Positions 3,605 through 48,764 of a stretch of DNA of 52,432 nucleotides are shown one piece after another. The notes below the pieces were generated by a model. That model was not told where the DNA came from. It saw only the letters and a list, made by a program, of their open reading frames with translations, and made no database searches. Every line of letters begins with the position of its first letter. The first letter of the stretch is position 1. The stretch is taken from NCBI RefSeq assembly GCF_013362815.1, contig NZ_JABFVK010000010.1:1-52432 (forward strand), in the 5' to 3' direction. The position numbers were made by a program, and so were the translations under genes. Source of the DNA: Hamadaea sp. (lineage in GTDB: Bacteria > Actinomycetota > Actinomycetes > Mycobacteriales > Micromonosporaceae).

Positions 3605-3666
3605 GTTGATCATGAACCTAGGGTTCCGCAGAACAGCTAGAGCGGAACCCTAGGTTCATGATCAAC
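3605..3666. repeat. Palindromic element, family A (copy A1), 62 nt
   Basis: Perfect 25-bp inverted arms enclose a 12-nt loop. The ends are GTTGATCATGAAC and its complement. It begins 10 nt after the malG stop codon and lies before the GH13 gene. Unit length matches the other family A copies at 8672, 12001, 13344, 42968 and 43047, but the interior differs from theirs. It probably forms a strong hairpin in RNA and may reduce read-through from malEFG. Confidence 0.85.
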
Positions 3667-3676
3667 CCTGGGAGAG

Positions 3677-4519
3677 CTAGCCCTTCACCGCGCCCGCGGT
3701 GAGGCCGTTGACGATGTACTTCTGGAGGTAGAGGAAGACGCCCACGGTCGGGACCGCGGTGAGCAGCGTGCCCGCCGCGAACATTCCGAAGTTGGCGTTG
3801 CGCTCGCCCGCGACCAGGCCGTAAAGGCCGACCGCGAGGGTCTTGGACTCGGGGTCGCGCAGGAAGATGTTGGCCATCAGCACCTCGCTCATCGTGCCGA
3901 TGAACGCGAGCATCGCGGTGACCGCGAGGATCGGCGCGACCAGCGGCAGGATGATCCGGAAGAAGACCTGCACGTGGGAGGCGCCGTCGACGGTGGCCGA
4001 CTCGTCGAGTTCCTTGGGCACCGTGTCGAGGAAGCCCTTCATCAGCCAGGTGTTCACGCCCAGCGCCGTGCCCATGTAAAGCAGCAGCAGACCGGCCGGG
4101 GTGTCGAAGCCGATGTAGCGCCAGTTCTCGGTGATGTCGGTGAACAGGATGAAGATCGCGACGATCGCCAGGAACTGCGGGAACATCTGGACCAGGAGCA
4201 GCGCCAGCAGCCCGACTCGACGGCCGTGGAACCGCATCCGGCTGAAGGTGTAGGCCGCGCTGAAGCTCAGGAAGACGCTGGCGAACGACGAGACGAGCGC
4301 GATGACCAGCGAGTTCATGAACCAGTGGGCGAACGCCGTGTTGTCGAACAGGTGCTGGAAGTTCTCCGCGCTCGCGCCGGTCGGCCACAGCTTGGACGAG
4401 GCCAGCGTGCCGAGCGGGTTGAACGCCGCCGACACAACGAAGACGATCGGGAAGAGCGAGAAGACGGCCACGAGCACGGCGATCAAGTGCCGCCAGCCCG
4501 TGCGCTTGAACCAGGTCAC
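3677..4519 (-). CDS. malG: Maltodextrin ABC transporter permease MalG
   Basis: A 280-aa inner permease subunit with six predicted transmembrane helices. The EAA loop that docks the ATPase is seen as ELDESATVDGASHVQVFF followed by RIILPLVAP. MalG pairs with MalF to form the channel of a maltose/maltodextrin importer. The GTG start overlaps the malF stop codon by 4 nt (GTGA) and has a GAGGAGG site 7 nt upstream, so translation is coupled to malF. The family A palindrome A1 follows 10 nt after the stop. Assignment rests on the EAA loop, the gene order malE-malF-malG and the flanking GH13 genes. Confidence 0.92.
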   Translation of the reverse strand: MTWFKRTGWRHLIAVLVAVFSLFPIVFVVSAAFNPLGTLASSKLWPTGASAENFQHLFDNTAFAHWFMNSLVIALVSSFASVFLSFSAAYTFSRMRFHGRRVGLLALLLVQMFPQFLAIVAIFILFTDITENWRYIGFDTPAGLLLLYMGTALGVNTWLMKGFLDTVPKELDESATVDGASHVQVFFRIILPLVAPILAVTAMLAFIGTMSEVLMANIFLRDPESKTLAVGLYGLVAGERNANFGMFAAGTLLTAVPTVGVFLYLQKYIVNGLTAGAVKG

Positions 4520-6195
4520 GAGTAGACCTCCTCGAGCGACCGGCTGCGCCGGAACCCGATGATCGACATGATGGCGACCAGCGTGAAGATGATCACCGAG
4601 ACGGCCGCCGCGAAGCCGAGCTGCGCGATGCCGCCGAAGGCCAACCGGTAGGTATAACTGATCAACAGGTCGGTCGCACCGACCGTGGCGTTGTCGATGG
4701 CGTACGGCCCGCCGTCGGTGACCAGCTTGATCGCGTTGAAGTTGTTGAAGTTGTACGCGAACGACGAGATCAGCAGCGGGGTGAGCGCGACCAGCAACAG
4801 CGGCAGCGTGACCCGGCGGAAGCCTTGCCAGGCAGTGGCCCCGTCGATGCTGGACGCCTCGGTCAGCTCCCGGGGTATCGCCTGCAACGCGCCGGTGGCC
4901 ACCAGGAACATGTAGGGGAAGCCGAGCCAGAGGTTGACGAGGATCAGCGACATCCGGGCGGTCATCGGCTCGCCGAGCCAGTCGATGTGCCAGCCGAACA
5001 GGTTGTTGATCAGGCCGAAGTCCTTGTTGAACATGTCCCGCCAGACCAGCAGCATCGCGAACGACGGCATCGCGTACGGCAGGATGATGATGACCCGGTA
5101 GATCTTGGTGCCCCGCATGCGCGGCGAGTGCAACGCGAGCGCGCACAGCAGGCCGAGCGCGAAGGTGGTCAGCACCGAAGCCGCCGCGAAGGCGAAGTTC
5201 CAGACGAAGACCGCGAAGAAGTTCCCGGAGACCGTCTTGTCGGTGAAGATCCGGGTGAAGTTCGCCAGGCCGACGTTGACTTTCCAGCCCTGGGCGATCG
5301 TCTCGCCGTCCGCGCTGCGGAAGTAGCCGTTCTTGGCGTCGGCGGTGTAGGTCTTGCCGTTCTTGGTGTCCTTGACGCAGTCGCAGGCCGCGTCGTAGTC
5401 GCGGACGGAGGTCAGCTCGACCGCCTTGCTCAATCCGCTCGACTTGATCGCGCCCTGCTCGGTCGGCACCGCGAAGTTCGCGATCTCGTCGCCCCGGGCG
5501 CTCGCGTCCGGCTTGCTGAGGATGTCGTAGCCGGGGACCTCGGAGAGCTGCTTGGTCAGCGACAGGTTGGCGTCGGTGAGACCGGGCAGCTCGGTCAGGC
5601 CGTCCGGCGTACCGACCTTCGCCTGGTCGAGCAGCGGTTCGCCCTTGTCGTCCACCGGGACCAGCAGGAAGACGAGCTTGCCGTCCTTCAGCGCGGGCGA
5701 CAGGTTGTACGACGCGGCCCCGGCGACCTGCTCGAGGGAGCTGGTCTGGATGGCGGTGATCGCCTCTTCCTTGGTGCCGCGGTGGCCGTCGCCGAAGTTC
5801 GTGAACGCGGTGCTCACCGTCAGGATCACCGGCACGAGTTGGAACACGACCAGGAACACGGTGCCGGGCAGGAGGTATTTGAGCGGGACGTGCCGCCGGC
5901 TGAGATAGAGGTACGCGATCCCCGCGCCGGCCGCCACCAGCACACCGACACCGATCCAGTTGTCGGTGCGGATCAGCGGCGGCAGGCCGAAGACCAGCAG
6001 GGCGGCGACGAGGCCGAGCGCGATCAGCCGGCCCACGAGGAACCCGACGGTGATCTCGCGCGGGCGGTAGTCGGCGGGGCGGTGCGGTTTCGAGTCGGAA
6101 CCGCGCTGGCCGGGCAGGCCGGAGCGCGGGGAGCCGGAGCTCCCCGCGCCCGTCACGCCACCCGACCCGGATGAGGTCGTGCTCGGCGTCGTCAT
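4516..6195 (-). CDS. malF: Maltodextrin ABC transporter permease MalF with large extracytoplasmic loop
   Basis: A 559-aa permease. A Ser/Gly-rich cytoplasmic N-terminus of about 45 residues is followed by three helices (near residues 50-130), then an extracytoplasmic loop of roughly 200 residues, then five helices. The loop corresponds in position to the P2 loop of E. coli MalF that contacts the binding protein; here it carries an ACDCVKD Cys-x-Cys motif. The EAA loop reads ELTEASSIDGATAWQGF. The ATG at 6195 lies 13 nt after the malE stop codon. An upstream in-frame ATG (6279) would lie inside malE and encodes an implausible Arg-rich extension. The loop sets it apart from the short actinobacterial MalF type. 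Confidence 0.92.
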   Translation of the reverse strand: MTTPSTTSSGSGGVTGAGSSGSPRSGLPGQRGSDSKPHRPADYRPREITVGFLVGRLIALGLVAALLVFGLPPLIRTDNWIGVGVLVAAGAGIAYLYLSRRHVPLKYLLPGTVFLVVFQLVPVILTVSTAFTNFGDGHRGTKEEAITAIQTSSLEQVAGAASYNLSPALKDGKLVFLLVPVDDKGEPLLDQAKVGTPDGLTELPGLTDANLSLTKQLSEVPGYDILSKPDASARGDEIANFAVPTEQGAIKSSGLSKAVELTSVRDYDAACDCVKDTKNGKTYTADAKNGYFRSADGETIAQGWKVNVGLANFTRIFTDKTVSGNFFAVFVWNFAFAAASVLTTFALGLLCALALHSPRMRGTKIYRVIIILPYAMPSFAMLLVWRDMFNKDFGLINNLFGWHIDWLGEPMTARMSLILVNLWLGFPYMFLVATGALQAIPRELTEASSIDGATAWQGFRRVTLPLLLVALTPLLISSFAYNFNNFNAIKLVTDGGPYAIDNATVGATDLLISYTYRLAFGGIAQLGFAAAVSVIIFTLVAIMSIIGFRRSRSLEEVYS

Positions 6196-6208
6196 CGGCG
6201 TCGTCTGC

Positions 6209-7465
6209 CTACTTCTTCTTCGCGATCGCGTCGTTGATGGCCTTCGCCGCGGCCTCCGCGGCGGTCTTCGGGTCGCCACCCTTGATCACGGCCACCTCGG
6301 CGTTGCCGAACGGGCCCCAGATCTCGTTCATGGCGGGGATCGCCGGCATCGGCAGGCCGTCCTTGCCCGCGTCGAGCCACTTCGCCACGTCCGGGTCGGC
6401 GGCCTTCGCGTCGTCCTGCGCGGCCAGCAGCGCCGGCGGACGCGGGTCGGCGGCGTACAGGGCGTTGGCGACCTCCTTGTTCGTGACGTAGTTCGCCACG
6501 AACTCCTGGGCCATCGCCTTGCTCTTGCCCTTGCTGGCGACGAAGAAGGCCTGAACACCGAGGAACGGCTGGGCCGGCTTGCCGCCGGAGAAGCCCGGGA
6601 TCGGGGTGATGTCGTACTTGATGCCGGCCTTCTTGATGTCGGCGATGTTCCACGAACCGGTGATGAAGAAGGCGGCCTTCTTGGCGGTGAAGGTCGCGGT
6701 GACGTTCTCGGCCGCGATCGAGGTCTTCAGCGCGCCGGCGCCCTTCTCGCCCAGCTCCTTGAGCTTGGTGAAGGCGGCGATCGAGTCGGCGCTGTTGACC
6801 GTCACGTTGTTCGGGTCCGGGTCGCCGGCCGAGGTGAGGCCGAACAGCGAGCCGCCGCCCGAGGAGTAGATCGGGTAGATGTGGTACGCGTCGCCGGAAG
6901 CGCCGCACTGGTCGAGCAGGATCTCGCTGACCTTGCCCGACTTCTTCAGGTCCTGACCGGCCTTGACCAGGTCCTCGATGCTCGCCGGAGCGGTCGGGGC
7001 CAGGTCGGTGTTGCGCACGAGAGCGATGTTCTCCAGCGCGTACGGGGCGCCGTAGATCTGGCCGTTGAAGGTCACGGCCTTGACCGCGGCCGCCGCGAAG
7101 AGCGACTTCTGCTGCGGGGACAGCTGCACCGGGTCGATGGCGCCGTTCTGCACCAGGTTGCCGATCCAGTCGTGCGCGCCGACCACGACGTCCGGGCCGC
7201 TGCCCTGCTGCGAGGCGGTCACGAAGACCTGCTGCAGGTTCTCGCTGATCTCCTTGACCTCGACGGTGACGCCGTTGTCCTTGCCGAACTGGTCGGCGTA
7301 CTTCTTGAGCACGGCCGAACGCTTGGTGTCGGCCCAGATGACCAGCTTGCCGTTGCCCTTGTCCTTCGACGGGGTCGCCGTGGGCTCGTCCTTCGATCCG
7401 CATGCCGCCAGCGCCGAGGCGGACGCCGCCGCGCCCAGAGCCGCAAAGACGGTACGTCTACGCAT
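6209..7465 (-). CDS. malE: Maltodextrin-binding lipoprotein MalE
   Basis: A 418-aa solute-binding lipoprotein. The signal peptide starts MRRRTVFAALG and ends with lipobox ALAAC; the paired arginines could allow Tat export. The mature protein has the family 1 extracellular binding protein fold signature, with GKLVIWADTKRS near its N-terminus and FFITGSWNIADIKKAG later, as in maltose-binding proteins. It delivers maltose or maltodextrins to MalFG. The ATG at 7465 has AGGAG 6 nt upstream; a preceding TTG is too close to it. It is the first gene of the malE-malF-malG run and is divergent from the LacI-type regulator, with candidate operators between them. Confidence 0.93.
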   Translation of the reverse strand: MRRRTVFAALGAAASASALAACGSKDEPTATPSKDKGNGKLVIWADTKRSAVLKKYADQFGKDNGVTVEVKEISENLQQVFVTASQQGSGPDVVVGAHDWIGNLVQNGAIDPVQLSPQQKSLFAAAAVKAVTFNGQIYGAPYALENIALVRNTDLAPTAPASIEDLVKAGQDLKKSGKVSEILLDQCGASGDAYHIYPIYSSGGGSLFGLTSAGDPDPNNVTVNSADSIAAFTKLKELGEKGAGALKTSIAAENVTATFTAKKAAFFITGSWNIADIKKAGIKYDITPIPGFSGGKPAQPFLGVQAFFVASKGKSKAMAQEFVANYVTNKEVANALYAADPRPPALLAAQDDAKAADPDVAKWLDAGKDGLPMPAIPAMNEIWGPFGNAEVAVIKGGDPKTAAEAAAKAINDAIAKKK

Positions 7466-7561
7466 CAAGGTCTCCTGTTCAGATGGGCCACGCCTTCAGG
7501 GGCCCGGAGGGGGTCAAACCAGGGGTATGCAGTTGTGTGTTGCGCGCACGTTAGCAAGACT

Positions 7562-7607
7562 TTGCAAGGAGTGGAAGTCCTTGCAGCCCCGTAGCCGCAA
7601 GATCTTG
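7562..7607. promoter_or_regulatory. Candidate operators in the divergent malE-malR gap
   Basis: TGCAAGGA and TCCTTGCA form perfect 8-bp arms 7 nt apart (7563-7585). A perfect 10-bp palindrome CAAGATCTTG follows at 7598-7607, just before the malR -10 box (TAGCAT, 7618-7623). Similar TTGCAAGG boxes precede the secreted amylase. Such boxes are expected targets of LacI-family maltose regulators; autoregulation and repression of malE are inferred from position. Confidence 0.6.
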
Positions 7608-7629
7608 TCTGTTCAGTTAGCATTCCGCC

Positions 7630-8652
7630 ATGCGTGCACGTCTGGCCGACATTGCTCGGCAGGCCGAAGTGAGCGAGGCCACGGTCTCGCGGGTCCTCAA
7701 CGACCGCCCTGGGGTGTCGACGGAGACCCGCCAGGCGGTGCTGACCGCGCTCGATGTGCTGGGCTATGAACGCCCCACCAAGCTGCGCAAACGTAGCGCG
7801 GGCCTCGTCGGGCTGGTAGTTCCAGAGCTCGACAACCCGATCTTCCCGGCATTCGCTCAGATCATCGAGTCGGCCCTCGCCCAGCAGGGATACACCCCGG
7901 TCCTGTGTACGCAGACCGCCGGCGGCGTGACCGAGGACGAGTACATCGAGATGCTGCTCGACCGCCAGGTGGCGGGCATCGTCTTCGTCTCCGGCCTGCA
8001 TGCCGACACGACGTCGGATCCGGACCGCTACCGCAAGCTCCTGACACGTCCGCTGCCGATCGTGCTGGTCAACGGCTTCGTCGAGGGCCTGGAAGCGCCG
8101 TTCGTGTCGGTCGACGAGCGGGCGGCGGCCGACTCCGCCGTCTCCCATCTCGCCGCCCTCGGTCACAAGCGGATCGGCCTGATCTCCGGGCCCGACCGCT
8201 TCCAGCCGGTGCAGCGCAAGATCGCCGGTTACCGGGACGCCATGCGCCGCCTGCTGCAGCTGAGCGACCGAGACATGGATTCGATGATCTCCCTGTCGCC
8301 CCTGTTCGGCGTCGAAGGCGGGTACGCCGCGACGACCCGGCTGCTAGACCGCGGGGTGACCGCCGTCGTCTGCGGTTCCGACCTGATGGCGCTCGGGGCG
8401 ATCGGGGCGGCCCGGCAGAAGGGCCTGAACGTCCCCGGCGACTTCAGCGTGGTCGGCTTCGACGACTCCCCGCTGATGGCCTTCACCGACCCACCGTTGA
8501 CCACGTTGCGGCAGCCCATCCGGGCCATGGCGGTCGCCGCTGCGCGGGCGCTGATCGACGAGATCCTGGGGCATCCCGCGCCGCACTCCGAATACGTCTT
8601 CCGCCCGGAGCTGGTGGTACGCGGCTCCACCGCCCAAGCCCTTTCGCGTTGA
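7630..8652 (+). CDS. malR: LacI family transcriptional regulator of maltodextrin use (MalR-like)
   Basis: A 340-aa regulator. The N-terminal helix-turn-helix and hinge read LADIARQAEVSEATVSRVLN, the standard LacI-family DNA-binding unit. The periplasmic-binding-like sensor domain follows (VGLVVPELDNPIFP, then HKRIGLISGP, then VVGFDDSPL). It is divergent from malEFG and lies upstream of two alpha-glucosidase-type genes, so a role as maltose-responsive repressor of all three units is likely. The -10 box TAGCAT ends 6 nt before the ATG, so the transcript should be leaderless. A family A palindrome lies 19 nt after the stop codon. The effector sugar is inferred from neighbours only. Confidence 0.9.
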   Translation: MRARLADIARQAEVSEATVSRVLNDRPGVSTETRQAVLTALDVLGYERPTKLRKRSAGLVGLVVPELDNPIFPAFAQIIESALAQQGYTPVLCTQTAGGVTEDEYIEMLLDRQVAGIVFVSGLHADTTSDPDRYRKLLTRPLPIVLVNGFVEGLEAPFVSVDERAAADSAVSHLAALGHKRIGLISGPDRFQPVQRKIAGYRDAMRRLLQLSDRDMDSMISLSPLFGVEGGYAATTRLLDRGVTAVVCGSDLMALGAIGAARQKGLNVPGDFSVVGFDDSPLMAFTDPPLTTLRQPIRAMAVAAARALIDEILGHPAPHSEYVFRPELVVRGSTAQALSR

Positions 8653-8671
8653 CCCCCACCCCGTTTTTCGC

Positions 8672-8732
8672 GTTGATCATGAACTAACGGTCGTGCTCGA
8701 CGGCGTGTCGCGTCCCCCAGACCGTGATCAAC
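8672..8732. repeat. Palindromic element, family A (copy A2), 61 nt
   Basis: It begins GTTGATCATGAAC and ends GTGATCAAC, so only the terminal part is an inverted repeat. The middle contains GGCGTGTCG, shared with the copies at 12001, 13344, 42968 and 43047. About 46 nt are almost identical to the unit at 12001. It follows the malR stop codon by 19 nt. Confidence 0.8.
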
Positions 8733-8785
8733 ACACCCGCACAGAGCCATCCTCGTGAAACTTGCTGAAAGCTTCTGCTTGACGT

Positions 8786-8800
8786 TTGCAAGGTTTGCAG
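8786..8800 (+). promoter_or_regulatory. Candidate MalR box before the secreted amylase
   Basis: Direct repeat TTGCAAGG-TTTGCAG, matching the half sites in the malE-malR gap. It lies about 53 nt upstream of the amylase start. It suggests that the amylase and alpha-glucosidase unit belongs to the same regulon. Confidence 0.5.
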
Positions 8801-8852
8801 CGCATTCTTCATCCCGTCACCAGTCAGGTGGCGGGTGGAGAGGAGCAGCAGC

Positions 8853-10295: not shown

Positions 10296-10324
10296 GATTC
10301 CACCCCCTGCGAAAGGAACCACCT

Positions 10325-11941: not shown

Positions 11942-11944
11942 CCC

Positions 11945-12258
11945 GCCCCTTTCCGCGCCCCCCGGGCGACTTTCCGCGCTCCCCGCGGGCGACTCTCCGC
12001 GCGATCATGAACTAACGGTCGTGCTCGACCGGCGTGTCGCGTTCCCAGCGCCCTGATCGTTCACCGGACTAGGTGATCGACTTTGGCCCAGCCGGAGCCG
12101 ATGTCGATCACCTAGTTACGGGAACGATCAGGGCGTTAGAGGATCAGCGACCTGGAAAAACGCAGTCGATCACCCCGGTTAGTTCATGATCGCGCGGAAG
12201 GTCCCCGCGGGGAGCGCGGAAGGTCCCCGGAGGAACGCGGAAGGTCCCCGGGGAACGA
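11945..12258. repeat. Composite nested palindrome between convergent genes (family A core)
   Basis: This fills the 322-nt gap between the alpha-glucosidase gene and trpS, and no gene is seen in it. Level 1: each flank has three 21-23-nt tandem units of the form GCGGAAAGTCGCCCG (left flank, on the reverse strand) and GCGGAAGGTCCCCG (right flank). Level 2: 11998-12017 and 12178-12197 are inverted copies built on CGATCATGAACTAAC. The left one opens a 62-nt family A unit (12001-12062). Level 3: 33-nt arms at 12049-12081 and 12103-12135 pair with four mismatches. It should act as a two-way transcription barrier. Confidence 0.85.
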
Positions 12259-12263
12259 GGGGG

Positions 12264-13404
<1,141 letters not shown>

Positions 13405-13451
13405 GGGGTGGGGCGGCAGGGGCCGACGGGGTGGGGCGGGAGAGGGCGGGG

Positions 13452-14387
13452 TCAGTCCCGGCTCTGCGCCAGGACGGCGGAGACGACTGGCGCAGGATTG
13501 CCGATTTCGAGCGCTGCGTTGTGCGTACCAGCTGGAAGTGCGAGCGGAACCGGCGCGGCCTGAAGCTGGTGCGGAACCTCGGCCACCCGGGCCAGGACGA
13601 CCCGCGCGACCCGGCGGCCGTCGAGCGCGAGCACCCGCAGCGTGACGCCGGCCCCGGGGACCTCGACCGTGTCGCCGACCCGGGCGAGCCGGCCGAGCGC
13701 GGCCATGAGGTAGCCCCCGAGCGTCTCGTAGGGGCCCTGGGCCAGCTCCACCCCGGTACGCCGGGCGAAGTCGGCGAGGCTGAGCCGCCCCTCGACCTCG
13801 GCCGGGAGCAGGCCGGTGAACGGCTCGTCGTCCTCGTCGTACTCGTCGTGGATCTCGCCGACGAGCTGTTCGATGAGGTCTTCGAGGGTCACGATGCCGG
13901 CGGTGCCGCCGTATTCGTCGACGACCAAGGCGAGCTGGTGACGTTCCCGCCGCATCTCCGACAGGGCCGGCAGCAGCCGGATCGCCGCCGGTAGACGCAT
14001 GATCTCCCGCACCAGTACGCGCAACGGCGCACCCGGGTCGCCCGCCAGCAGATCCCGCAGGTGGACGAAGCCGATGACATTGTCGGCGTCGCCGTCGACC
14101 ACCGGGAACCGGGAGTGATGCCGGCCGCGGGCGACCGCCTCGGCCTGCGACCGCTCCCAGCGGGCGTCGAGGAAGACCACATCCGGCCGGGGCACCATGA
14201 CCTCGCGGATCAGCGAGTTACCGCTGGCCCAGACGTCGTCGATGATGCGGCGTTCGTCGCCGCCGAGGTGGATGTTGGTGGTCACGAGGGCACGCAGCTG
14301 ATCCTCGCTGAGCCGCTCCCGCAGGACCCTCATGATCCACGGGGACAGAGTTCGAGCAAAGAGTCCGGGTCTATGACCATCGGGCAT
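13452..14387 (-). CDS. CorC/HlyC-type CBS-domain protein without DUF21
   Basis: A 311-aa soluble protein. It has a paired CBS module ([17 protein letters not shown], then [23 protein letters not shown] and [20 protein letters not shown]) followed by the CorC_HlyC transporter-associated domain (from about residue 215). These domains bind adenine nucleotides and regulate Mg/Co efflux in relatives. Most actinobacterial family members begin with a DUF21 membrane domain; this one does not, and galE starts too close upstream to leave room. It therefore resembles E. coli CorC. The -10 box TACCAT ends 6 nt before the ATG at 14387, which supports that start and a leaderless mRNA. Divergent from galE. 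Confidence 0.85.
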
Positions 14388-15467: not shown

Positions 15468-15519
15468 TATCCGGGATAACGTCGCTATTCCCGCGAGAAT
15501 AGGGACGTTATCCCGGATA
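15468..15519. repeat. Palindromic element, family C (copy C1), 52 nt
   Basis: Arms of 23 nt with one mismatch start TATCCGGGATAACG and enclose a 6-nt loop. It lies between the convergent galE and chitinase genes, 32 and 58 nt from their stop codons. It suits a bidirectional terminator and is related to the elements at 45607 and 48713. Confidence 0.85.
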
Positions 15520-18225: not shown

Positions 18226-18327
18226 GCGCTGGATCAGGGTTCCCGGTCGAATCTCGCCGGGGAGCCTCTCGGGCGAGCCGCCGGGAGTGCGGTCAGTCAA
18301 GATTCGACACAGAACCATGATCCGGCG
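18226..18327. repeat. Palindromic element, family B long form (copy B1), 102 nt
   Basis: The ends are GCGCTGGATCAGGGTTC and the near complement AACCATGATCCGGC. Between the arms is a module of about 50 nt with GCCGGGGAGCCTCTCGGGCG. This module is the reverse complement, with few changes, of the module in the copy at 40017. It lies between galK and the YihY gene, 31 nt after the galK stop. Confidence 0.8.
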
Positions 18328-19842: not shown

Positions 19843-19969
19843 GGCCGCCCCCTTTCGGACGGGACTGTAGCCATCCTGATCCCGGCGAGGATCGTCCGTT
19901 CCTCCAGCGATCATCACCCGTTCGCCGGGATCGCGCGAGCTGAACCCGCCCTCATTCACGAAAGCGTTC

Positions 19970-20034
19970 GCGCTGGATCAGGGTTCCGGGTCGAATCTTG
20001 GGGCAAGATTCGACCGAGAACCCTGATCCAGCGC
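19970..20034. repeat. Palindromic element, family B short form (copy B2), 65 nt
   Basis: Arms of 31 nt pair with two mismatches around a 3-nt loop. The ends are GCGCTGGATCAGGG and CCCTGATCCAGCGC. It lies 15 nt after the cysN stop. It is nearly identical to the copy at 33551 and lacks the internal module of the long form. Confidence 0.87.
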
Positions 20035-20049
20035 GCGAAGAAGGCAGCC

Positions 20050-33550: not shown

Positions 33551-33615
33551 GCGCTGGATCAGGGTTCCGGGTCGAATCTTGCGCCAAGATTCGACCGCGA
33601 ACCCTGATCCAGCGC
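33551..33615. repeat. Palindromic element, family B short form (copy B3), 65 nt
   Basis: Arms of 31 nt with two mismatches and a 3-nt loop. Sequence is almost the same as copy B2 at 19970. It lies 30 nt past the stop of the DUF4383 gene at 33646 and about 60 nt upstream of the GNAT start. Confidence 0.87.
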
Positions 33616-37870: not shown

Positions 37871-38881
37871 TCACCAGGGGCCGAACACGCGTTCCCCGGT
37901 GGCCGAGATGCCCTGGCAGACCTCCTCGACGGGCAGCCCCTTCGTTTCGGCCAGCGCGCGTACGGTCAGCGGGATGAGGTAGGAGGCGTTCGGCGCGCCC
38001 CGATGCGGCATCGGCGTCAAGTAGGGCGCGTCGGTCTCCACGAGCAGCTGGGAGAGCGGCGTCAGCGCAGCGGCTTCTCGTAGGTGCGGCGCATTCTTAA
38101 AGGTCACCGTGCCTGCGAAGGACAACACATACCCCCGGCGTACGCACTCCCGGGCGAAGAAGACGTCACCGGAGAAGCAGTGCAGCACGACGGTGTCGGG
38201 CGCACCGGCGTCGTCGAGCACCCGCAGAACGTCGGCGTGCGCGTCGCGATCATGGATGACCAGTGCTTTCCCCGTACGCTTGGCGATCTCGATGTGCCCG
38301 CGGAAGCTGTGCTCCTGCGCCTTGAGACCCTCTTCGCCGGTGCGGAAGAAGTCCAGCCCCGTCTCCCCGATCCCGCGTACGCGCGGCTGCCCCGCGAGCG
38401 AGTCGATGACCGCGATCGCGGCGTCCAGATCGGCCAGCCGAGGAGCCTCGTTCGGATGCAGCGCCACCGTCGCGAGCACCGACGGTTCCCGCTCGGCCAG
38501 CTCGGCGCTCCAGCGGGAGGACGCTTCGTCCACCCCGACCTGGACCAGCCGGTCGACGCCGACCGCCCGGGCCGCCGCAACCTGGTCGGCCACCGACCAG
38601 CCCGAGCCGTTCGACCCGACGATGTCGCTTTTGTCGCTTTTGTCGCCGGCAGCCGTCCTCCCAGCGTCGGCACCGGCCTCGGTCGAGCGACTGCCGGCGA
38701 CGATGTCGCTTTTGTCGCCGGCAGCCGTCCTCCCAGCGTCGGCACCGGCCTCGGTCGAGCGACTGCCGGCGACGATGTCCAAGTGCACATGGCTGTCGAG
38801 GACGGCCACCGGCAGCGCAGCCGGCGCTTCCGGCGCTGGGCGTTCGCGGCGGTCGGCGGCACGGCGGCTGCGGTCGGTCAC
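37871..38881 (-). CDS. tatD: TatD family metal-dependent hydrolase with repeat insertion
   Basis: A 336-aa TIM-barrel hydrolase; relatives act as 3'-5' DNA exonucleases or DNases. Metal ligands are visible: SHVHLD (His31, His33), GIGETGLDFF (Glu), VIHDRDAH and HCFSGD (His), and VETDAPYL (Asp). Between the first His pair and the next helix (VADQVAAARAVGV) lies an extra stretch of about 60 residues. It is made of two 24-residue units (IVAGSRSTEAGADAGRTAAG core) encoded by a 72-bp tandem repeat. Normal TatD proteins have only a few residues there. A TAGGAT -10-like box ends 6 nt before the GTG start, so the mRNA is probably leaderless. Confidence 0.9.
   Translation of the reverse strand: MTDRSRRAADRRERPAPEAPAALPVAVLDSHVHLDIVAGSRSTEAGADAGRTAAGDKSDIVAGSRSTEAGADAGRTAAGDKSDKSDIVGSNGSGWSVADQVAAARAVGVDRLVQVGVDEASSRWSAELAEREPSVLATVALHPNEAPRLADLDAAIAVIDSLAGQPRVRGIGETGLDFFRTGEEGLKAQEHSFRGHIEIAKRTGKALVIHDRDAHADVLRVLDDAGAPDTVVLHCFSGDVFFARECVRRGYVLSFAGTVTFKNAPHLREAAALTPLSQLLVETDAPYLTPMPHRGAPNASYLIPLTVRALAETKGLPVEEVCQGISATGERVFGPW
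38618..38779. repeat. In-frame 72-bp minisatellite in tatD
   Basis: Two copies with period exactly 72 bp (38642-38713 and 38714-38779, identical over 66 nt). A partial unit with a smaller GTCGCTTTT duplication lies at 38618-38641. Because 72 is a multiple of 3, copy changes leave the tatD frame open. Confidence 0.92.
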
Positions 38882-38941
38882 CTCGTGATCCTAGCCGCGC
38901 CGCTACCGCAAGATCCGCGTCGCTACAGCAAGATGCCGGTG

Positions 38942-39967: not shown

Positions 39968-40016
39968 GATCAGCGACGCTAGTCGCCCAAAGTGAACGGA
40001 ACGTGACCCACCGATG

Positions 40017-40120
40017 GCGCTGGATCAGGGATCTCGGCCGAATCTTGGGCTGACTGCACTCCTGGCGGCTCGCCCAAGAGGCTCCCCGGCGAGATTCGAC
40101 CCACATCCCTGATCCAGCGC
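40017..40120. repeat. Palindromic element, family B long form (copy B4), 104 nt
   Basis: Ends GCGCTGGATCAGGGATC and ATCCCTGATCCAGCGC. The internal module (TTGGGCTGACTGCACTCC and onward) is the reverse complement of that in copy B1 at 18226, so the two long copies lie in opposite orientation. It lies beyond the tandem hairpin array that follows metG. Confidence 0.82.
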
Positions 40121-40177
40121 TGAAAAGCGCAGCCTCCAGCGCTGAAAAGCGCAGCCTCCAGCGCTGAAAAGCGCAGC
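40116..40177. repeat. Three tandem hairpin units after metG
   Basis: A 22-nt unit starting AGCGCTGAAAAGCGC is present in two full copies and a third of 18 nt. Each holds a perfect small hairpin, GCGCT-GAAA-AGCGC, with a GNRA-type loop. The array ends 3 nt before the metG stop codon and its first unit merges with the end of family B copy B4. Confidence 0.88.
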
Positions 40178-40180
40178 GGG

Positions 40181-41971: not shown

Positions 41972-42148
41972 AGCCATAGAGCCTAATCCCCGGTCGGTCC
42001 GGCTCGACGCGGCGTAGTTGGCCGCGAGGACCGGGCTCGACCGGAACGAATGGCTCAGGGGACCAGAAGGGCGGCGAACTGGATATCACTCTCCGCGACA
42101 CGCGAGGGAATGTCCAGCTAGATGCGGTTTTATCGGGAAGATGATGTA

Positions 42149-42958: not shown

Positions 42959-42967
42959 CCGCTGAGC

Positions 42968-43108
42968 GTTGATCATGAACCTAAGGTTCCGCCTGTGCGG
43001 CGTGTCGGCCCCCTAAGGTCGTGATCAACAGACGCGGCAACGCCGCGTTGATCACGACGACGGGGGCGGTGACACGCCGCCGAAGCGGACCTTAGGTTCA
43101 TGATCAAC
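42968..43108. repeat. Double family A palindrome (copies A4 and A5) between convergent genes
   Basis: Two 62-nt family A units in opposite orientation (42968-43029 and 43047-43108) form one imperfect palindrome of 141 nt. A GC-rich centre of 17 nt separates them. Each unit has ends GTTGATCATGAACC and CGTGATCAAC and a core GGCGTGTC. The TGA stop codon of rsmI lies inside the right-hand terminus. Confidence 0.88.
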
Positions 43109-43937
43109 GCGATGGGGCGGGGGCGACTGCGGCGGCGTACACCTCGCGTTTGGCGACGCCGTAGGCGGCGGCCACCGCCTCGATCGCATCCCGGCGGGTG
43201 AGCCCGGCCCTCACCTGCTCGGCCACGAGCTCGCGGAGTTCGTCGTCGCTCGGCCGGGGCGTCTGCTGCGGCGCGGCCCCCGCGACGACGAGCGTGATCT
43301 CGCCTTTGAACTGCGCTGCCGCGTCACTCAACTCGGCCAGCGGCGCTCTGCGTACCTCTTCATATGTCTTGGTGAGCTCGCGGCAGAGAGCGGCCGCACG
43401 GTCGGGACCGAACGCGGACGCCAAGTCGCGGAGCGTGGCCTCGATGCGATGCGTGGACTCGAAGAAGACGAGCGTGCGGGGTTCGACGGCGAGTTCGGCG
43501 AGCCGGGCGCGGCGCGCGGACCCGGTACGCGGCAGGAAGCCCTCGAAGCAGAACCGGTCGACGGGCAGGCCGGACAGGGCGAGCGCGGTGGTGACCGCGC
43601 TGGGGCCAGGCGCGCAGGTGACCGGTACGCCCGCCGCGAGAGCCGCCGTGACCAGCCGATATCCGGGGTCGCTGACGCTGGGCATGCCGCCGTCGGTGAT
43701 CAGCGCGACGGTCGTGCCGGACCGAAGGAGATCGACGAGTTCGGGTGTCCGCTTCTCCTCGTTGCCCTCGAAGTAGCTGATCAACTTTCCGGGCATCTCG
43801 ATCGAAAGGTCGCGAGCGAGCCGGATCAGCCGCCTGGTGTCCTCCGCCGCGATGACCTCGGCGCTGGCGAGCGTCTCGCGCAGACGCGTCGATGCGTCGG
43901 CCGGATTTCCGAGCGGCGCGCCGCAGAGGATCAACAT
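43104..43937 (-). CDS. rsmI: 16S rRNA (cytidine-2'-O)-methyltransferase RsmI
   Basis: A 277-aa SAM-dependent enzyme of the tetrapyrrole-methylase fold that modifies C1402 of 16S rRNA. LILCGAPLGNPADAS is the N-terminal glycine loop, AEDTRRLIRLA and ALITDGGMPSVSDPG are family signatures, and PGPSAVTTALALSGLP and ELTKTYEEV follow. The ATG at 43937 has a CATACT -10 box ending 6 nt upstream, so the mRNA is likely leaderless. It is divergent from pmt. The stop codon TGA is supplied by the terminal sequence of a family A palindrome. Confidence 0.94.
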   Translation of the reverse strand: MLILCGAPLGNPADASTRLRETLASAEVIAAEDTRRLIRLARDLSIEMPGKLISYFEGNEEKRTPELVDLLRSGTTVALITDGGMPSVSDPGYRLVTAALAAGVPVTCAPGPSAVTTALALSGLPVDRFCFEGFLPRTGSARRARLAELAVEPRTLVFFESTHRIEATLRDLASAFGPDRAAALCRELTKTYEEVRRAPLAELSDAAAQFKGEITLVVAGAAPQQTPRPSDDELRELVAEQVRAGLTRRDAIEAVAAAYGVAKREVYAAAVAPAPSR

Positions 43938-44008
43938 GGTGACAGTATGGTCGAGCAGCTCACAGTCGCTCGCACCGCTAGGGGAGAAACGAGCGCTAGT
44001 ATGCGGCC
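43938..44008. promoter_or_regulatory. Divergent leaderless promoters of rsmI and pmt
   Basis: On the plus strand TAGTAT (43997-44002) ends 6 nt before the pmt ATG. On the minus strand CATACT (43949-43944) ends 6 nt before the rsmI ATG. Both would start transcription at or next to the start codon. Confidence 0.65.
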
Positions 44009-45565
44009 ATGACGATTGCCCCCGAAGCGACCGCCAGCGTCCCGCACCCGGCGGCACCGGGCGCCCCGGCCGTCTCCGACATCCGGCAGCGCCTGCTGCC
44101 GATCGATGTCAAATACGACCCGTGGGCCTGGCTCGCCATGGGCATCGTCACGCTGATCGCCGGCATTCTGCGCTTCGTCGGGCTGGACGCGCCCAAGGGC
44201 AAGATCTTCGACGAGGTCTACTACGCCACCGACGCGCACAACATCTGGCGGCTGGGCTACGAGTGGGACGAGAAGGCCAACACCGCCGGTTACGTGGTGC
44301 ACCCGCCGTTGGGCAAGTGGCTCATCGGCATCGGTGAGCAGATCTTCGGATACAACGAGTACGGCTGGCGATTCTCCGCCGCACTATTCGGCACGGCCAG
44401 CGTCCTGATGCTGATGTTCGTGGCGCGTCGCCTGTTCGGGTCGATCGCGCTGGCCTGCGCGGCCGGGCTGCTCATGTCGTTCGACGGGATGCACTTCGTA
44501 CTCTCCCGCTCGGCGCTGCTCGACATGTTCCTCATGTTCTTCGTGCTCGCCGCGTTCACCTGCCTCGTCCTCGACCGACAGCAGCGCCGGCGGCGCTGGG
44601 TGGAGTTCGTCGAAGCCGGCGGCGACCCGGCCGGGCGCGGCCGGGCGAGCCGCCCCCGGTTCGCCGTCCCGTGGTGGCGGATCGCCGCGTTCGTCATGTT
44701 CACCCTGGCGTTCAGCGTCAAGTGGAGCGCGCTCGCCTTCCTCCCGATCATGGTGTTCCTCGTCTACTGGTGGGAGATCGGCACGCGCCGGGTCGTCGGC
44801 GTACGCCGCCCGATCGTGGACACCCTGCTCGACGAGACCGGCTGGTTCCTCGTGTGCGCCGTGCTGTTCTTCGGCATCTACCTCACGACGTGGAGCGGCT
44901 GGCTGCTCACCGACGGCGGGTACAACCGGCACTGGCTCCGCGACACCGGCGGCCACGAACTCCCGGTCATCGGGGCGCTGCAGAACCTGTGGCACTACCA
45001 CCAGCAGGCGTACGACTTCCACACGCACCTCGACGATCCGCACACCTACCAGTCGTGGCCGTGGCAGTGGCTGCTGCTGGCCCGTCCGGTCGCGTTCTAC
45101 TGGTCGAGCAACGACCCCTGCGGCGGCGGCAGCTGCGCCGCCGAAGTCGTCCTCAACGGCACCCCCGCCCTGTGGTGGGCCTTCCTGCCCGCCCTGGCCG
45201 CGCTCGTCTGGCTGGCGATCTCCCGCCGCGACTGGCGCGCCGGCGCGATCCTCGGCTTCATCGCGATGGGCTGGCTCCCCTGGTTCTACTACGAGCTCGA
45301 CAACCGCACGATGTTCTTCTTCTACGCGCTGCCGCTCGAGCCGTTCCTCATCCTCGCCGTCGTCTACGTGCTCGGCGCGATCATGGGTCCCGGCAAGGAC
45401 GGGCTGCCCGACGAGAAGAGACGGATGACCGGCGCGGTGATCGCCGGGGCGTTCGTGTTGCTCGTGGCGCTGAACTTCGCGTACTTCTATCCGATCTTCA
45501 CCGGGCAGTCGATTCCCTACGACTCCTGGCTGCACCGGATGTGGCTCGGCAACCGCTGGATCTAG
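44009..45565 (+). CDS. pmt: Dolichyl/polyprenyl-phosphate-mannose protein O-mannosyltransferase
   Basis: A 518-aa GT39 membrane enzyme that moves mannose from polyprenyl-phosphomannose to Ser/Thr of exported proteins. GKIFDEVYYATDAHN contains the catalytic Asp-Glu of the first extracytoplasmic loop. About nine to eleven transmembrane helices are predicted. FDGMHFVLSRSALLDMFLMFF is a conserved Pmt segment, and a C-terminal helix block (WLPWFYYELDNRTMFFFYALP) follows. Linkage to rsmI and metG is usual in actinobacteria. TAGTAT ends 6 nt before the ATG, so the transcript is probably leaderless. Tandem family C sequence starts 1 nt after the stop. Confidence 0.94.
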   Translation: MTIAPEATASVPHPAAPGAPAVSDIRQRLLPIDVKYDPWAWLAMGIVTLIAGILRFVGLDAPKGKIFDEVYYATDAHNIWRLGYEWDEKANTAGYVVHPPLGKWLIGIGEQIFGYNEYGWRFSAALFGTASVLMLMFVARRLFGSIALACAAGLLMSFDGMHFVLSRSALLDMFLMFFVLAAFTCLVLDRQQRRRRWVEFVEAGGDPAGRGRASRPRFAVPWWRIAAFVMFTLAFSVKWSALAFLPIMVFLVYWWEIGTRRVVGVRRPIVDTLLDETGWFLVCAVLFFGIYLTTWSGWLLTDGGYNRHWLRDTGGHELPVIGALQNLWHYHQQAYDFHTHLDDPHTYQSWPWQWLLLARPVAFYWSSNDPCGGGSCAAEVVLNGTPALWWAFLPALAALVWLAISRRDWRAGAILGFIAMGWLPWFYYELDNRTMFFFYALPLEPFLILAVVYVLGAIMGPGKDGLPDEKRRMTGAVIAGAFVLLVALNFAYFYPIFTGQSIPYDSWLHRMWLGNRWI

Positions 45566-45566
45566 G

Positions 45567-45658
45567 TCTTTCGAGGGGCGTTATCCGGGATCTTTCGAGG
45601 GGGCCTTATCCGGGATAACGTCCCCTCGCCGCGTGTTGAGGCCGCGTTATCCCGGATC
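45567..45658. repeat. Palindromic element, family C (copy C2) with tandem lead-in
   Basis: A 24/25-nt direct repeat beginning TCTTTCGAGGGG and ending TTATCCGGGA (45567-45590, 45591-45615) runs into a 52-nt family C unit (45607-45658). The unit has arms TATCCGGGATAACG and CGTTATCCCGGAT. It follows the pmt stop directly. Confidence 0.85.
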
Positions 45659-45709
45659 CGGTGAGCAGATCCGGCCAGGTTGTCGGGCCCTTTCCCTAGC
45701 GTTTCCCGC

Positions 45710-46186
45710 ATGAGCGCATACATCCTTCCGGAGCAAGCCCTCGTCCGCGAGGTGACCGGCCCCAATCGCACCGGGCAGATCTCCGCCACCCCCTCGGCGG
45801 ACGGGCGATGGGAGTTCAGCCTGATCATCTGCGACGGCGACGGGCAGGTCATGACCGACCTCACCGGCGTCATCGCGCCCGACGACGTCAGCCTCGTCCT
45901 CAGCGTCCTGCCGTTGGAGGTCGCCACCATGGGAGCGTGGGGCGGGCCACCGACGGCGGCCGCGGAGCGGCGGCGCAAGCATCCCAACCTCTATCAGAAG
46001 TGGACACCCGCCGAGGAGGCCGACCTCCTCCAGCAGTTCCAGGCCGGCGAGGCGTACGCCGAGATCGCGAGATCGCTCGGCCGGACGGTGGGCGGCGTGA
46101 AGGCCCGCCTCGTACGCCTCGGCCACCTCACTCCACAGCAGGCAGGCTGGCCGATGGGGAGCCAGCGGGCTACCGCCGACGCCTGA
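45710..46186 (+). CDS. Small protein with C-terminal SANT/Myb-like helix-turn-helix
   Basis: A 158-aa protein. The C-terminal 55 residues start KWTPAEEADLLQQFQAGEAY and continue AEIARSLGRTVGGVKARL, a SANT/Myb-like DNA-binding pattern with the initial Trp and a recognition helix. The N-terminal 85 residues form an uncharacterised domain rich in beta strands. The TAGCGT -10-like box ends 7 nt before the ATG at 45710, so the mRNA is probably leaderless; an in-frame ATG at 45680 lies before that box. Target and role are unknown. A DNA-binding role is inferred from the domain. Confidence 0.8.
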   Translation: MSAYILPEQALVREVTGPNRTGQISATPSADGRWEFSLIICDGDGQVMTDLTGVIAPDDVSLVLSVLPLEVATMGAWGGPPTAAAERRRKHPNLYQKWTPAEEADLLQQFQAGEAYAEIARSLGRTVGGVKARLVRLGHLTPQQAGWPMGSQRATADA

Positions 46187-46216
46187 GCCGCCTGATCCGA
46201 GTGGCAGGATGGTCGG

Positions 46217-46735
46217 ATGTCCTCACTGATCATCCGCCCCGGAACCCTCGACGACGTCACCACCGTCCTGCGCTTCATGGATGAGGCGACCGCCTGGCTG
46301 GTGTCCATCGGGCGTACCGACCAATGGGGCAGCGAGCCGCACTCGACCAACCCGAAGCGGATCGCGCAGATGGAGGGCTTCGCCCGCGCCGGAGGACTGT
46401 GGATCGCCGAGGCCGGCGGCCGACCGGTCGGGGCGCTGTCGGTCGGCGAGGCACTCCCGTACGCACCACCGGCGCAGGAGCCGGAGCTTTACGTCCAGTT
46501 CCTCATCTCCGACCGCACCGCCAAGGGCAGCGGCGTAGGTTCGGCTCTGCTCGACCATGCGCGTGAGCAGGCCCGAGCCCTCGGCGTCGGAGTGCTGCGC
46601 CTCGACTGCTTCGCCGGTGGCGAGGGCGCGCTGATCCGTTACTACGAAGGGCAGGGGTTCACCCGGGCGGAGACGTTCTCCGTCACCCAGGGCGAACGCG
46701 ACTGGCCCGGGCAGGTCATGACCCAGCGGCTCTGA
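46217..46735 (+). CDS. GNAT family N-acetyltransferase
   Basis: A 172-aa single-domain acetyltransferase. The acetyl-CoA loop region reads FLISDRTAKGSGVGSALLDHA, and the C-terminal strand-helix is LRLDCFAGGEGALIRYYEGQGF. The start IIRPGTLDDVTTVLRFM is the usual GNAT beta-1/alpha-1. Substrate is unknown. A CAGGAT -10-like box ends 6 nt before the ATG. It follows the SANT-like gene by 30 nt on the same strand. A 62-nt palindrome follows 26 nt after its stop. Confidence 0.9.
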   Translation: MSSLIIRPGTLDDVTTVLRFMDEATAWLVSIGRTDQWGSEPHSTNPKRIAQMEGFARAGGLWIAEAGGRPVGALSVGEALPYAPPAQEPELYVQFLISDRTAKGSGVGSALLDHAREQARALGVGVLRLDCFAGGEGALIRYYEGQGFTRAETFSVTQGERDWPGQVMTQRL

Positions 46736-46761
46736 CCCCCAGCGTCGCGTTCGGCGCCGCG

Positions 46762-46823
46762 TTCCATGATCATGGTCATTTCCGCGTCGCCATGGTGACC
46801 GAGAAGTTCCCATGATCTTGGAA
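46762..46823. repeat. Palindromic element, single family D copy, 62 nt
   Basis: Ends TTCCATGATCATGG and CCCATGATCTTGGAA, with about 23 of 31 positions pairing across the whole unit. Same length as family A but different sequence. It lies between convergent genes, 26 nt after the GNAT stop and 32 nt after the stop of the cysteine-rich protein gene. Confidence 0.6.
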
Positions 46824-46855
46824 GGCCGGCCGGGCCAGCGGGGCGAGCCGAGCGT

Positions 46856-47056
46856 TCAGCCGGACCTGCAGACGTGGGTGACGTCGCGCAGTTCCTGGGC
46901 GCACTCGGCGCACTCCCAGTGACGGCAGTAGAGCCCGCAGTCCAGGCACATCGACCAGGCGGGACGCATCAACCCGTGCCCGGTGGGGCACGCCTGCACC
47001 CGGCCTCGCTGGCGAGGCGGATGACCGTACGGGAGCCAGATCTTCGCGCGTCCCAC
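46856..47056 (-). CDS. Small cysteine-rich protein (possible zinc ribbon)
   Basis: A 66-aa protein with eight cysteines and histidines arranged CPTGHG, then CLDCGLYC, then HWECAEC, then HVC near the C-terminus. This suggests one or two zinc sites. No enzyme motif is visible. The case for a real gene is the promoter: TTGACT and GATAGT/TAGTCT boxes lie upstream with the -10 ending 6-8 nt before the GTG start. The gene is divergent from the ArsR-type gene, 160 nt away, and is short enough to be missed by automatic annotation. Confidence 0.65.
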   Translation of the reverse strand: MGRAKIWLPYGHPPRQRGRVQACPTGHGLMRPAWSMCLDCGLYCRHWECAECAQELRDVTHVCRSG

Positions 47057-47093
47057 GGACGGAGACTATCGAACGGATGTTCGTCAGAGTCAA
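47057..47093 (-). promoter_or_regulatory. Promoter of the cysteine-rich protein gene
   Basis: On the minus strand TTGACT is followed after 18-19 nt by GATAGT/TAGTCT. TAGTCT (47068-47063) ends 6 nt before the GTG start, so the transcript should be leaderless. Confidence 0.55.
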
Positions 47094-47180
47094 GGCACGA
47101 CACGCCCGCATCGAAGGCGAGGATCGCCTGGTGACGTTGGGTTTTGTCGCGGTCACGGTGCGCCGCCGACAATCTAAGAG

Positions 47181-47216
47181 TTGACTTATATAAGCTGGAC
47201 CTGAAATAGTCGGGGC
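47181..47216 (+). promoter_or_regulatory. ArsR gene promoter with embedded palindrome
   Basis: The -35 box TTGACT (47181-47186) and -10 box AATAGT (47205-47210) are 18 nt apart, and the -10 ends 6 nt before the GTG. A perfect palindrome CTTATATAAG (47185-47194) overlaps the -35 box and the spacer. It is a likely operator for autorepression by the ArsR-type protein. Confidence 0.65.
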
Positions 47217-47663
47217 GTGCACGCGTTCGACGTTCTCGGCGACCCGGTACGCCGTCGGATCCTGGAGTTGCTGGCCGACGGCGAACAACCCGCCGGCGTC
47301 GTGAGCTCGACCGTGCAGGCCGAGTTCGGCATCTCCCAGCCTGCTGTCTCACAGCATCTCAAAGTGTTGCGTGACAACGGATTCGCGACCGTACGCGCCG
47401 AGGGCACCCGTCGCCTGTACGCGCTCGATCCGGGCGCGCTGGCCGAAGCCGACGAATGGCTCGGCCGATTCCGGGCGTTCTGGAGCCAGCGCCTCGACGC
47501 GTTGGCCACCGAACTGGCCCGCGGCCAACGCGAAGCCCACCGCCGTGAAGCTGCGGACAGCGAGGCTGCGCAACCCGAAACCGGCCGACGGGAAAGCCGA
47601 TCAGGAGAACAGGAGCAAGCCAATGATGGACATCATCGCAGAACTCGCCGCCGTGCAGCGTGA
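47217..47663 (+). CDS. ArsR family transcriptional regulator
   Basis: A 148-aa winged-helix regulator. The core MHAFDVLGDPVRRRILELL is followed by the recognition part FGISQPAVSQHLKVLRDNGF and wing VRAEGTRRLYALD. No Cys-based metal site (CxC) is present, so it is not an arsenic or cadmium sensor; it belongs to the branch paired with SRPBCC/AHSA1 genes. The C-terminal 50 residues are charged and low in complexity. The last 41 nt overlap the next gene. The GTG start is directly next to its promoter (leaderless). Confidence 0.9.
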   Translation: MHAFDVLGDPVRRRILELLADGEQPAGVVSSTVQAEFGISQPAVSQHLKVLRDNGFATVRAEGTRRLYALDPGALAEADEWLGRFRAFWSQRLDALATELARGQREAHRREAADSEAAQPETGRRESRSGEQEQANDGHHRRTRRRAA

Positions 47664-48270
47664 GACGGGAAGCCGTCCACTGCCCAACGGCGAAGCCAAA
47701 GTCGTCCGGCTGCGTCGCGCGTACGACGCGAAGATCGACGACGTCTGGGACGCCCTGACCAGCGCCGAACGGCTGAACCGGTGGTTTCTGCCCGTGAGCG
47801 GCGACCTGCGCCTGGGTGGGCAGTACCAGTTCGAGGGCAACGCGGGCGGCGAGGTGCTGGAATGCGAGCCGCCGGCGCGGCTGCGCGTGACCTGGTTCTT
47901 CGGCGAGCGAGCGGCGACCGACGTCTCCGAAGTGGTGGTACGCCTGGCCGAGGACGGCGGCCAGACGGTGCTGGACCTGGAGCACGTGGCGACCGTCGAC
48001 CCCGAACGGTGGGCGACCTACGGCCCGGGCGCGGTCGGCGTCGGCTGGGAGCTCGGCCTCCTCGGTCTGCAATGGGAGCTGACCGGCGTGGAGGCGTCGA
48101 TGGAGGAGCGCATGGCATGGGGCATGTCGGCCGAGGGGCGGCAACTCGCCACGGGCAGCAGCGAGGCATGGGGCAAAGCGTTGCTCGCTTCCGGCGCCAC
48201 GCCGGAGGAGGCAGCCACGGCCACGCGAAACACGACCGAGTTCTACGTTCCCCCGGAGCCCGCTGAATAG
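47623..48270 (+). CDS. SRPBCC/AHSA1-type protein
   Basis: A 215-aa protein. LRRAYDAKIDDVWDALTSAERLNRWFLPVSGDLRLGGQY is the standard AHSA1-like START-domain opening, and ARLRVTWFFG and VVVRLAEDGGQTVLDLEHV continue the beta-sheet. These domains bind hydrophobic ligands; pairing with an ArsR-type regulator is common but the ligand is usually unknown. The ATG at 47623 has AGGAG 7 nt upstream and lies inside the end of the ArsR gene, which indicates coupling. An extra C-terminal helical part (about residues 140-215) is present. Confidence 0.87.
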   Translation: MMDIIAELAAVQRETGSRPLPNGEAKVVRLRRAYDAKIDDVWDALTSAERLNRWFLPVSGDLRLGGQYQFEGNAGGEVLECEPPARLRVTWFFGERAATDVSEVVVRLAEDGGQTVLDLEHVATVDPERWATYGPGAVGVGWELGLLGLQWELTGVEASMEERMAWGMSAEGRQLATGSSEAWGKALLASGATPEEAATATRNTTEFYVPPEPAE

Positions 48271-48287
48271 AAAGCTATCGTCGCGGT

Positions 48288-48677
48288 ATGTTCCGCGATC
48301 CGTTCCCCATCTTCTTGACCGACGACCTGGCGGCGATCACGGCGTTCTACCGCGACCTTCTCGGCTTCGGCGAGGCATACCGGTTTCCTCCGTCTCCATT
48401 GGACGATCCCGAGTTCGTGGTGCTGAGTCTCGGCCCGGCCCAGTTCGGCTTCGGCCGGGCCGGCTCGGTCCCCCTGCACGGCCGCATGCGCAGCCTGGAA
48501 ACCGGTAACCGCGTCGAGGTCTGCGTCTACACCGACAACGTGGACCTGGCGGTCGACTTCCTCCGCGAAGCCGGCACACCGGTCCTGTCCGAGCCGGTCG
48601 ACCAGCCTTGGGGCGAACGAGCGGCCTACGTCGCCGATCCGGACGGCAATCCCGTCCTCATCGTCGCGCGCATCTAG
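48288..48677 (+). CDS. VOC family protein (glyoxalase/bleomycin resistance fold)
   Basis: A 129-aa single-module vicinal oxygen chelate protein. FPIFLTDDLAAITAFYRDLLGFGEAYRF is the first beta-alpha-beta unit, and ERAAYVADPDGNPVLIVARI is the closing strand with the usual DPDGN. Metal ligands are incomplete by eye, so ligand binding rather than catalysis is possible. TATCGT ends 6 nt before the ATG, so the transcript is probably leaderless. It follows the SRPBCC gene by 17 nt, and a family C palindrome follows it. Confidence 0.87.
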   Translation: MFRDPFPIFLTDDLAAITAFYRDLLGFGEAYRFPPSPLDDPEFVVLSLGPAQFGFGRAGSVPLHGRMRSLETGNRVEVCVYTDNVDLAVDFLREAGTPVLSEPVDQPWGERAAYVADPDGNPVLIVARI

Positions 48678-48698
48678 CCCCCGCGCCACTCTCGCCTG

Positions 48699-48764
48699 AC
48701 GGGAGGCCACGTTATCCGGCGATAGCGTGGCCTCCCGTCGTGGAATAGCCGCGTTATCCCGGAC
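48699..48764. repeat. Palindromic element, family C (copy C3)
   Basis: The 52-nt unit at 48713-48764 begins TATCCGGCGATAG and ends CGTTATCCCGGAC. Overlapping it is a second perfect hairpin with 14-bp arms GACGGGAGGCCACG and its complement (48699-48740). The two foldings exclude each other in part. It lies 21 nt after the VOC gene stop. Confidence 0.75.

Follow-up and report, generated by a model that had tools for sequence, protein, structure and literature searches.

Dispersed palindromic repeat families, probably REP/BIME-like, concentrated behind stop codons in a Micromonosporaceae genome

The intergenic palindromes described here probably belong to REP/BIME-like dispersed repeat families of a Micromonosporaceae lineage, copied by a trans-acting agent that our searches did not find. 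Several families occur throughout the genome, lie mostly at gene 3' ends, and are present, absent or replaced by another family between relatives, in agreement with the first-pass annotation of this DNA, which had proposed non-autonomous amplified elements. Proteobacteria, where they occur alongside RAYTs, are the best-known hosts of REP-like elements. In this actinobacterial lineage there are several such families and no RAYT, the elements at a given gene end turn over quickly, and one unit has a sense bias, so that two questions can be tested: which agent moves REPs where there is no RAYT, and whether targeting or selection accounts for the position of the repeats at gene ends.

The window is the whole stretch of 52,432 nt that was analyzed, contig C18 of a 7.45-Mb genome labelled G000, which we compared with three other genomes of the same genus (G001, G002 and G003). 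Palindromes were found at or close to all 13 loci listed by the first-pass annotation (Table 1). As it had stated, every one of them lies near a stop codon (7-61 nt from the nearest) and none overlaps the seven minus/plus (divergent) gaps of the window. Some descriptions had to be amended. The two A copies reported at 42968 and 43047 are a pair of inverted 62-nt A units, and the one reported at 12001 is an A palindrome with another palindrome nested in it. The B elements of 102-104 nt do belong to B, but are its 65-nt palindrome enlarged by a repeated insert of ~40 nt in the loop. The supposed C copy at 48713 has the CGTTATCC stretch in common with that family, but is really a 42-nt stem. Only two matches in the window reached the Rfam gathering level, both of them tRNAs; plant and animal miRNA precursor models matched at three palindromes (E up to 5), far below their gathering scores, and were discarded as hairpin artefacts. 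A 72-nt unit in perfect tandem duplication (2 copies, 100% identical) was also seen within a coding region of the window, at 38632-38775.

Table 1. Palindromic elements of the window, with their context and the state of the same place in related genomes.
Element	Position in window	Strand	Context	Same place in relatives
A palindrome, 62 nt	3605..3666		25-bp perfect arms; 10 nt from stop of minus-strand gene 3677-4519	G003: no element
Single asymmetric A unit (A1)	8672..8732	+	sense, after gene 7630-8652	
A-type outer arms, 87-nt second palindrome (12049-12135) nested within	12003..12191		convergent gap	
Single A1 unit	13344..13404	-	sense to minus-strand gene 13452-14333	unit common to G000 and G003
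C palindrome, 52 nt	15468..15519		convergent gap	G003: other palindromes
Long B element, repeated ~40-nt insert in loop between B arms	18227..18327			G003: E element
B palindrome, 65-67 nt	19969..20035			
B palindrome, 65 nt	33551..33615		tandem gap	G003: no element recognised
Long B element with loop insert	40017..40120			G003: no element; G001: ordinary GC-rich hairpin
A1 pair, inverted, 5' ends outward (145 nt)	42966..43110	42968-43029 plus, 43047-43108 minus	between convergent genes	G003: gap of 0 nt; G002: 31-nt minimal A hairpin (L110 3835-3865)
C palindrome	45607..45658		tandem gap	G003: C element and A unit
D3 palindrome (CCATGATCATGGTCA...)	46764..46823		convergent gap	
42-nt stem with 19 bp, C-like CGTTATCC core	48698..48739		tandem gap	G003: A unit

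Strong hairpins are predicted for these palindromes. The A unit, of 61-62 nt (GTTGATCATGAAC...GATCAAC), takes three forms: the asymmetric A1 with a conserved interior GGCGTGTCG, a full palindrome, and two inverted units (~140 nt). The outer stem is the only part of A1 that is consistent across 59 copies (RNAalifold). The B palindrome has the core GCTGGATCAGGG, and its long form spans 101-104 nt. The families A to D of the first-pass annotation are found genome-wide, but its list lacked a further family, E (65 nt, GCTGCAGATCACGG), which is common in the genome. Nor is D the single copy it was taken for, since it has at least two forms, with 8 D3 and 18 D2 profile matches in 1.646 Mb of this genome. 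A ends in CGTT, with a C at position -1 in 87% of 101 flanks, and CGTC is read only in some relatives' A copies; B, C, D and E end in other sequences, and none of the families has a GTAG-type terminal tetranucleotide. We found no insertion motif common to the families, the flanks of A being C-rich and those of B and E having T at -4/-3. Short tandem repeats that include the element's first bases extend outward of B ends in 15 of 82 cases, versus 31 of 3000 random intergenic places, and are near the control level for A (3/101), E (1/86) and C (3/54). These arrays beside B elements, made of the first bases and the flank (e.g. window 40121-40180), may be the mark of slippage at the hairpin or of the insertion mode.

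The first-pass annotation expected further copies in the genome, and they are numerous. The A core has 200 exact copies genome-wide and the B core 283, against none for either core reversed; allowing one mismatch gives 240 A cores versus 4 reversed. In a 1.246-Mb sample, the reversed A, B, C and D cores have 0 matches each. Forward cores being so far above the reversed controls, the A and B repeats cannot be put down to chance. A self-comparison of the 668 intergenic gaps of the same sample yielded de novo 153 repeated segments in about 8 clusters, including a cluster of 6 members that is probably of another kind. That is about 1 segment per 8 kb, half the density of the window, so the earlier estimate of about one locus per 4 kb holds for the window and not for the sample.

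The expected enrichment behind stop codons, relative to divergent gaps, is clear in this sample. Convergent gaps hold 52 of the segments in 22,480 nt, tandem gaps 83 in 68,777 nt and divergent gaps 18 in 36,851 nt, although a few of these gap classes may be wrong since genes were called with a simple codon-usage caller and not with Prodigal. The segments are thus densest in convergent gaps, and sparser, yet present, in divergent ones: the complete absence from divergent gaps that was reported for the window does not extend to the rest of the genome. Within tandem gaps, 65 of the 83 segments are nearer the stop and 14 nearer the next start. Of the cores, 22 A cores lie in tandem gaps, 18 in convergent and 4 in divergent ones; for B the counts are 30, 13 and 4, respectively. 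Coding sequence is nearly free of them (3 A and 4 B matches in ~1.12 Mb). Hence, neither a lack of further copies nor an equal frequency in promoter gaps or coding regions was observed.

The families differ widely between relatives. Exact A/B cores number 200/283 in G000, 0/4 in G001, 18/286 in G002 and 23/130 in G003; the A core is also frequent in G019 (58), G053 (80) and G022 (63), where B is at background. Collinearity with the window has ~90% DNA identity in G003 and ~79% in G001. Gaps were compared with G003 on contigs C18, C28 and C17, where 203 of 231 could be matched; contig C31, for which synteny with G003 failed, was outside this comparison. Labelled elements were present in 54 of the orthologous gaps in G000, in 34 in G003 and in 27 in both (9.0 expected), counts in which elements peculiar to G003 are underrepresented because the label library was built from G000. 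The 54 gaps labelled in G000 have no label in G003 in 27 cases (one of which holds an A core on recheck), the same label in 17 and another label in 10. The empty sites that the first-pass annotation proposed to look for therefore exist, and at four convergent sites, among them 42958 with the A1 pair of the window, the G003 genes are 0-6 nt apart where G000 has an element. Outside the list of short gaps, C18 15435 shows other palindromes in G003.

Same-label pairs exceeded the 95th percentile of non-orthologous pairs in 5 of 7 cases for A, 2 of 2 for B, 3 of 5 for E and 0 of 1 for D; judged on these scores, copies with the same label are often truly orthologous. Inspection by eye retained 8 of the 10 different-label sites as real swaps, five being B versus E, two families that grade into each other. 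The two others were rejected, one (C18 45565) because a C element is found in G003 too, the other (C28 92678) because both genomes carry orthologous copies of a single B/E hybrid. Tandem sites holding elements of different labels were in excess (6 versus 1.7 expected, p 0.0018), but this excess shrinks in longer gaps (6 versus 3.0, p 0.04, for gaps of at least 80 nt; 6 versus 3.5, p 0.07, for at least 100 nt), which makes the evidence for target hot spots weak. At the displayed C18 sites, the 79% outgroup G001 has no A or B element, and ordinary GC-rich hairpins are found at several of them. The choice between gain in G000 and loss in G003 would depend on this one distant outgroup. All in all, these alignments indicate that the elements turn over fast between related species. 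In loci of other genera (Catellatospora, Micromonospora, Dactylosporangium and others), we found some long palindromes (score of at least 18) with other sequences, mostly outside divergent gaps; those of Micromonospora look like one site common to several species and are thus not independent cases. Three copies of a separate A-like subfamily are present in an uncultured Micromonosporaceae MAG (L115 9881-9936, 18835-18892 and 19780-19837).

Ordinary transcription terminators, i.e. hairpins selected in place at 3' ends and alike through preferred sequence use, would also be expected to appear as strong predicted hairpins behind genes, and 5 of the 10 convergent orthologous gaps of G003 without an element do have a hairpin below -25 kcal/mol. 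This explanation is nevertheless very unlikely, as unrelated loci carry members of one family that hardly differ over 60 nt and the same genes have an element in one relative and lack it in the next. The flanks also speak against it. TTT occurs in the 10 nt 3' of the hairpin in 2 of 93 B, 0 of 30 E and 2 of 101 A elements (control 214/5000), and AAA in 24 of 93, 10 of 30 and 10 of 101, respectively (control 206/5000). With runs of A and not of T, these are not classical intrinsic terminators. The arms of B show no covariation (paired cells 0.889, versus 0.888 with arms re-dealt, in 42 elements), and a selected RNA hairpin is thus not supported for this family. Arm pairing in E was 0.791 versus 0.749 when shuffled, above all 500 shuffles (maximum 0.789), a difference that subfamilies may explain, and in the 62-nt set of A it was below the shuffles (0.658 versus 0.695). 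The use as transcript 3'-end structures suggested by the first-pass annotation thus finds no support in the A-rich flanks or in the B arms. Our guess would be a role linked to Rho, with a C-rich stretch followed by a hairpin. The 30 nt 5' of A1 are C-rich in all classes (C 47-55%, G 19-23%; controls 35-38% C, 30-32% G).

The A1 unit is also oriented. In tandem gaps, single A1 units are sense in 31 cases and antisense in 10 (p 0.0015) when G000 and G003 are pooled, a count that is not fully independent since some copies are common to both genomes; taken separately, the ratios are 18:5 in G000 (p 0.011) and 13:5 in G003 (p 0.10). Since the bias holds for genes of either strand, the local gene majority does not explain it. 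In convergent gaps, single units do not favour the nearer gene (17 sense, 14 antisense), and the paired units are sense to it in 13 of 13 cases. Paired A hits number 13 in convergent gaps and 4 in tandem gaps. Among the other families, there is no significant bias in C (6:3) or D2 (5:3), Bins is at 5:5 and D3 is antisense in 3 of 3; E is at 2:13 (p 0.007), with an orientation set arbitrarily by the seeds and four or more families tried. The sense bias of A1 points to a strand-aware role or to strand-aware insertion.

What copies these elements was searched for in several ways. If they were canonical REPs with a RAYT (Y1) transposase as their mobiliser, for which the first-pass annotation proposed to look, one would expect the placement, alternating pairs, high copy number and species-specific family differences that we see. 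We found however no match to PF01797 in G000 (97% complete), G001, G002, G003 (one contig, 100% complete), G019 or G022, while E. coli and other control genomes matched, and the ends are not GTAG. The domain occurs in 8 of 61 relatives, a set that excludes G053, and none of these eight is element-rich. With no Y1/RAYT in G000 or the searched element-rich relatives, the named mobiliser is not supported; this explanation is very improbable, and would hold only if the RAYT had been lost or had diverged to an extreme degree.

The elements could instead depend on a DDE transposon, as its MITEs, or on another insertion sequence, as its non-autonomous partners, and their terminal inverted repeats, burst-like copy numbers and the CGTT-like stretch at both ends of two A sites are in line with this. 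We consider it unlikely: the displayed empty sites, few of them clean, show no clear or consistent target-site duplication, and no repeated coding element with the ends of these families was found in 1.246 Mb, where there are only 16 repeats of at least 300 nt and IS copies may be missing where contigs break off. Of 12 genes that lie between inverted copies of one family, in a partial coverage of the genome, none looks like a transposase by eye, and the part viewed of a 1.7-kb stretch that separates two A cores on C8 contained no obvious one. A 675-nt stretch is repeated at 91% identity at C5:59972-60641 and C20:57003-57675.

Under the REP/BIME-like reading that we favour, a trans-acting agent would, in bursts, copy short units (~61-65 nt, occurring singly, as a fused palindrome or as inverted pairs of ~140 nt) to other sites. 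Copies would persist mostly just behind stops, and most of all where two genes converge, since they are presumably not tolerated in promoter gaps or coding sequence, and perhaps also because copying favours transcript ends. Once at 3' ends, they would be transcribed, fold into strong hairpins, and likely affect Rho-dependent termination or mRNA 3'-end stability. A bolder and rather unlikely version supposes that Micromonosporaceae have a strand-aware copying system, independent of RAYTs, by which palindromic units reach transcript 3' ends, where families replace one another at the same genes. As REP/BIME-like repeats, the elements would form a layer of transcript 3' ends that changes quickly from one species to a close relative. 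To the known cases they add another lineage, the lack of Y1, the turnover and the strand bias.

Some features of these repeats have counterparts in known systems. The terminators made of uptake sequences in Neisseria and Haemophilus consist of a short word in inverted pairs at gene ends; our elements are also found as inverted pairs there, but unlike uptake sequences are almost missing from coding sequence. In our searches of an open-access library, we found no account of such repeats in actinobacteria or Micromonosporaceae, nor of MITEs in Frankia or Micromonospora. The stem-loop families Bor, Ype and Efa differ in sequence and hosts, and no bias in sense direction is reported for them in the excerpts available to us (PMC1590033); like ours, they are intergenic and cluster near the 3' end of coding sequences. 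According to the available excerpts of PMC3733652, most REPs lie behind coding regions, in unidirectional or convergent gaps. The placement called unusual by the first-pass annotation is therefore, on these published descriptions, the one expected for REP-like repeats. The same excerpts describe CGTC-tagged REPs, palindromic repeats apparently without a dedicated transposase, which we take as a lead only; the ends of our families are different. Relative to REP/BIME elements moved by RAYTs, as the available parts of PMC2817692 and PMC3733652 describe them, our units are longer (61-65 versus 20-40 nt), lack the GTAG end and come without a Y1 transposase. In line with those elements, they are palindromic units in more than 100 copies, single or as inverted pairs, that form several families per genome and lie mostly in unidirectional and convergent gaps downstream of genes.
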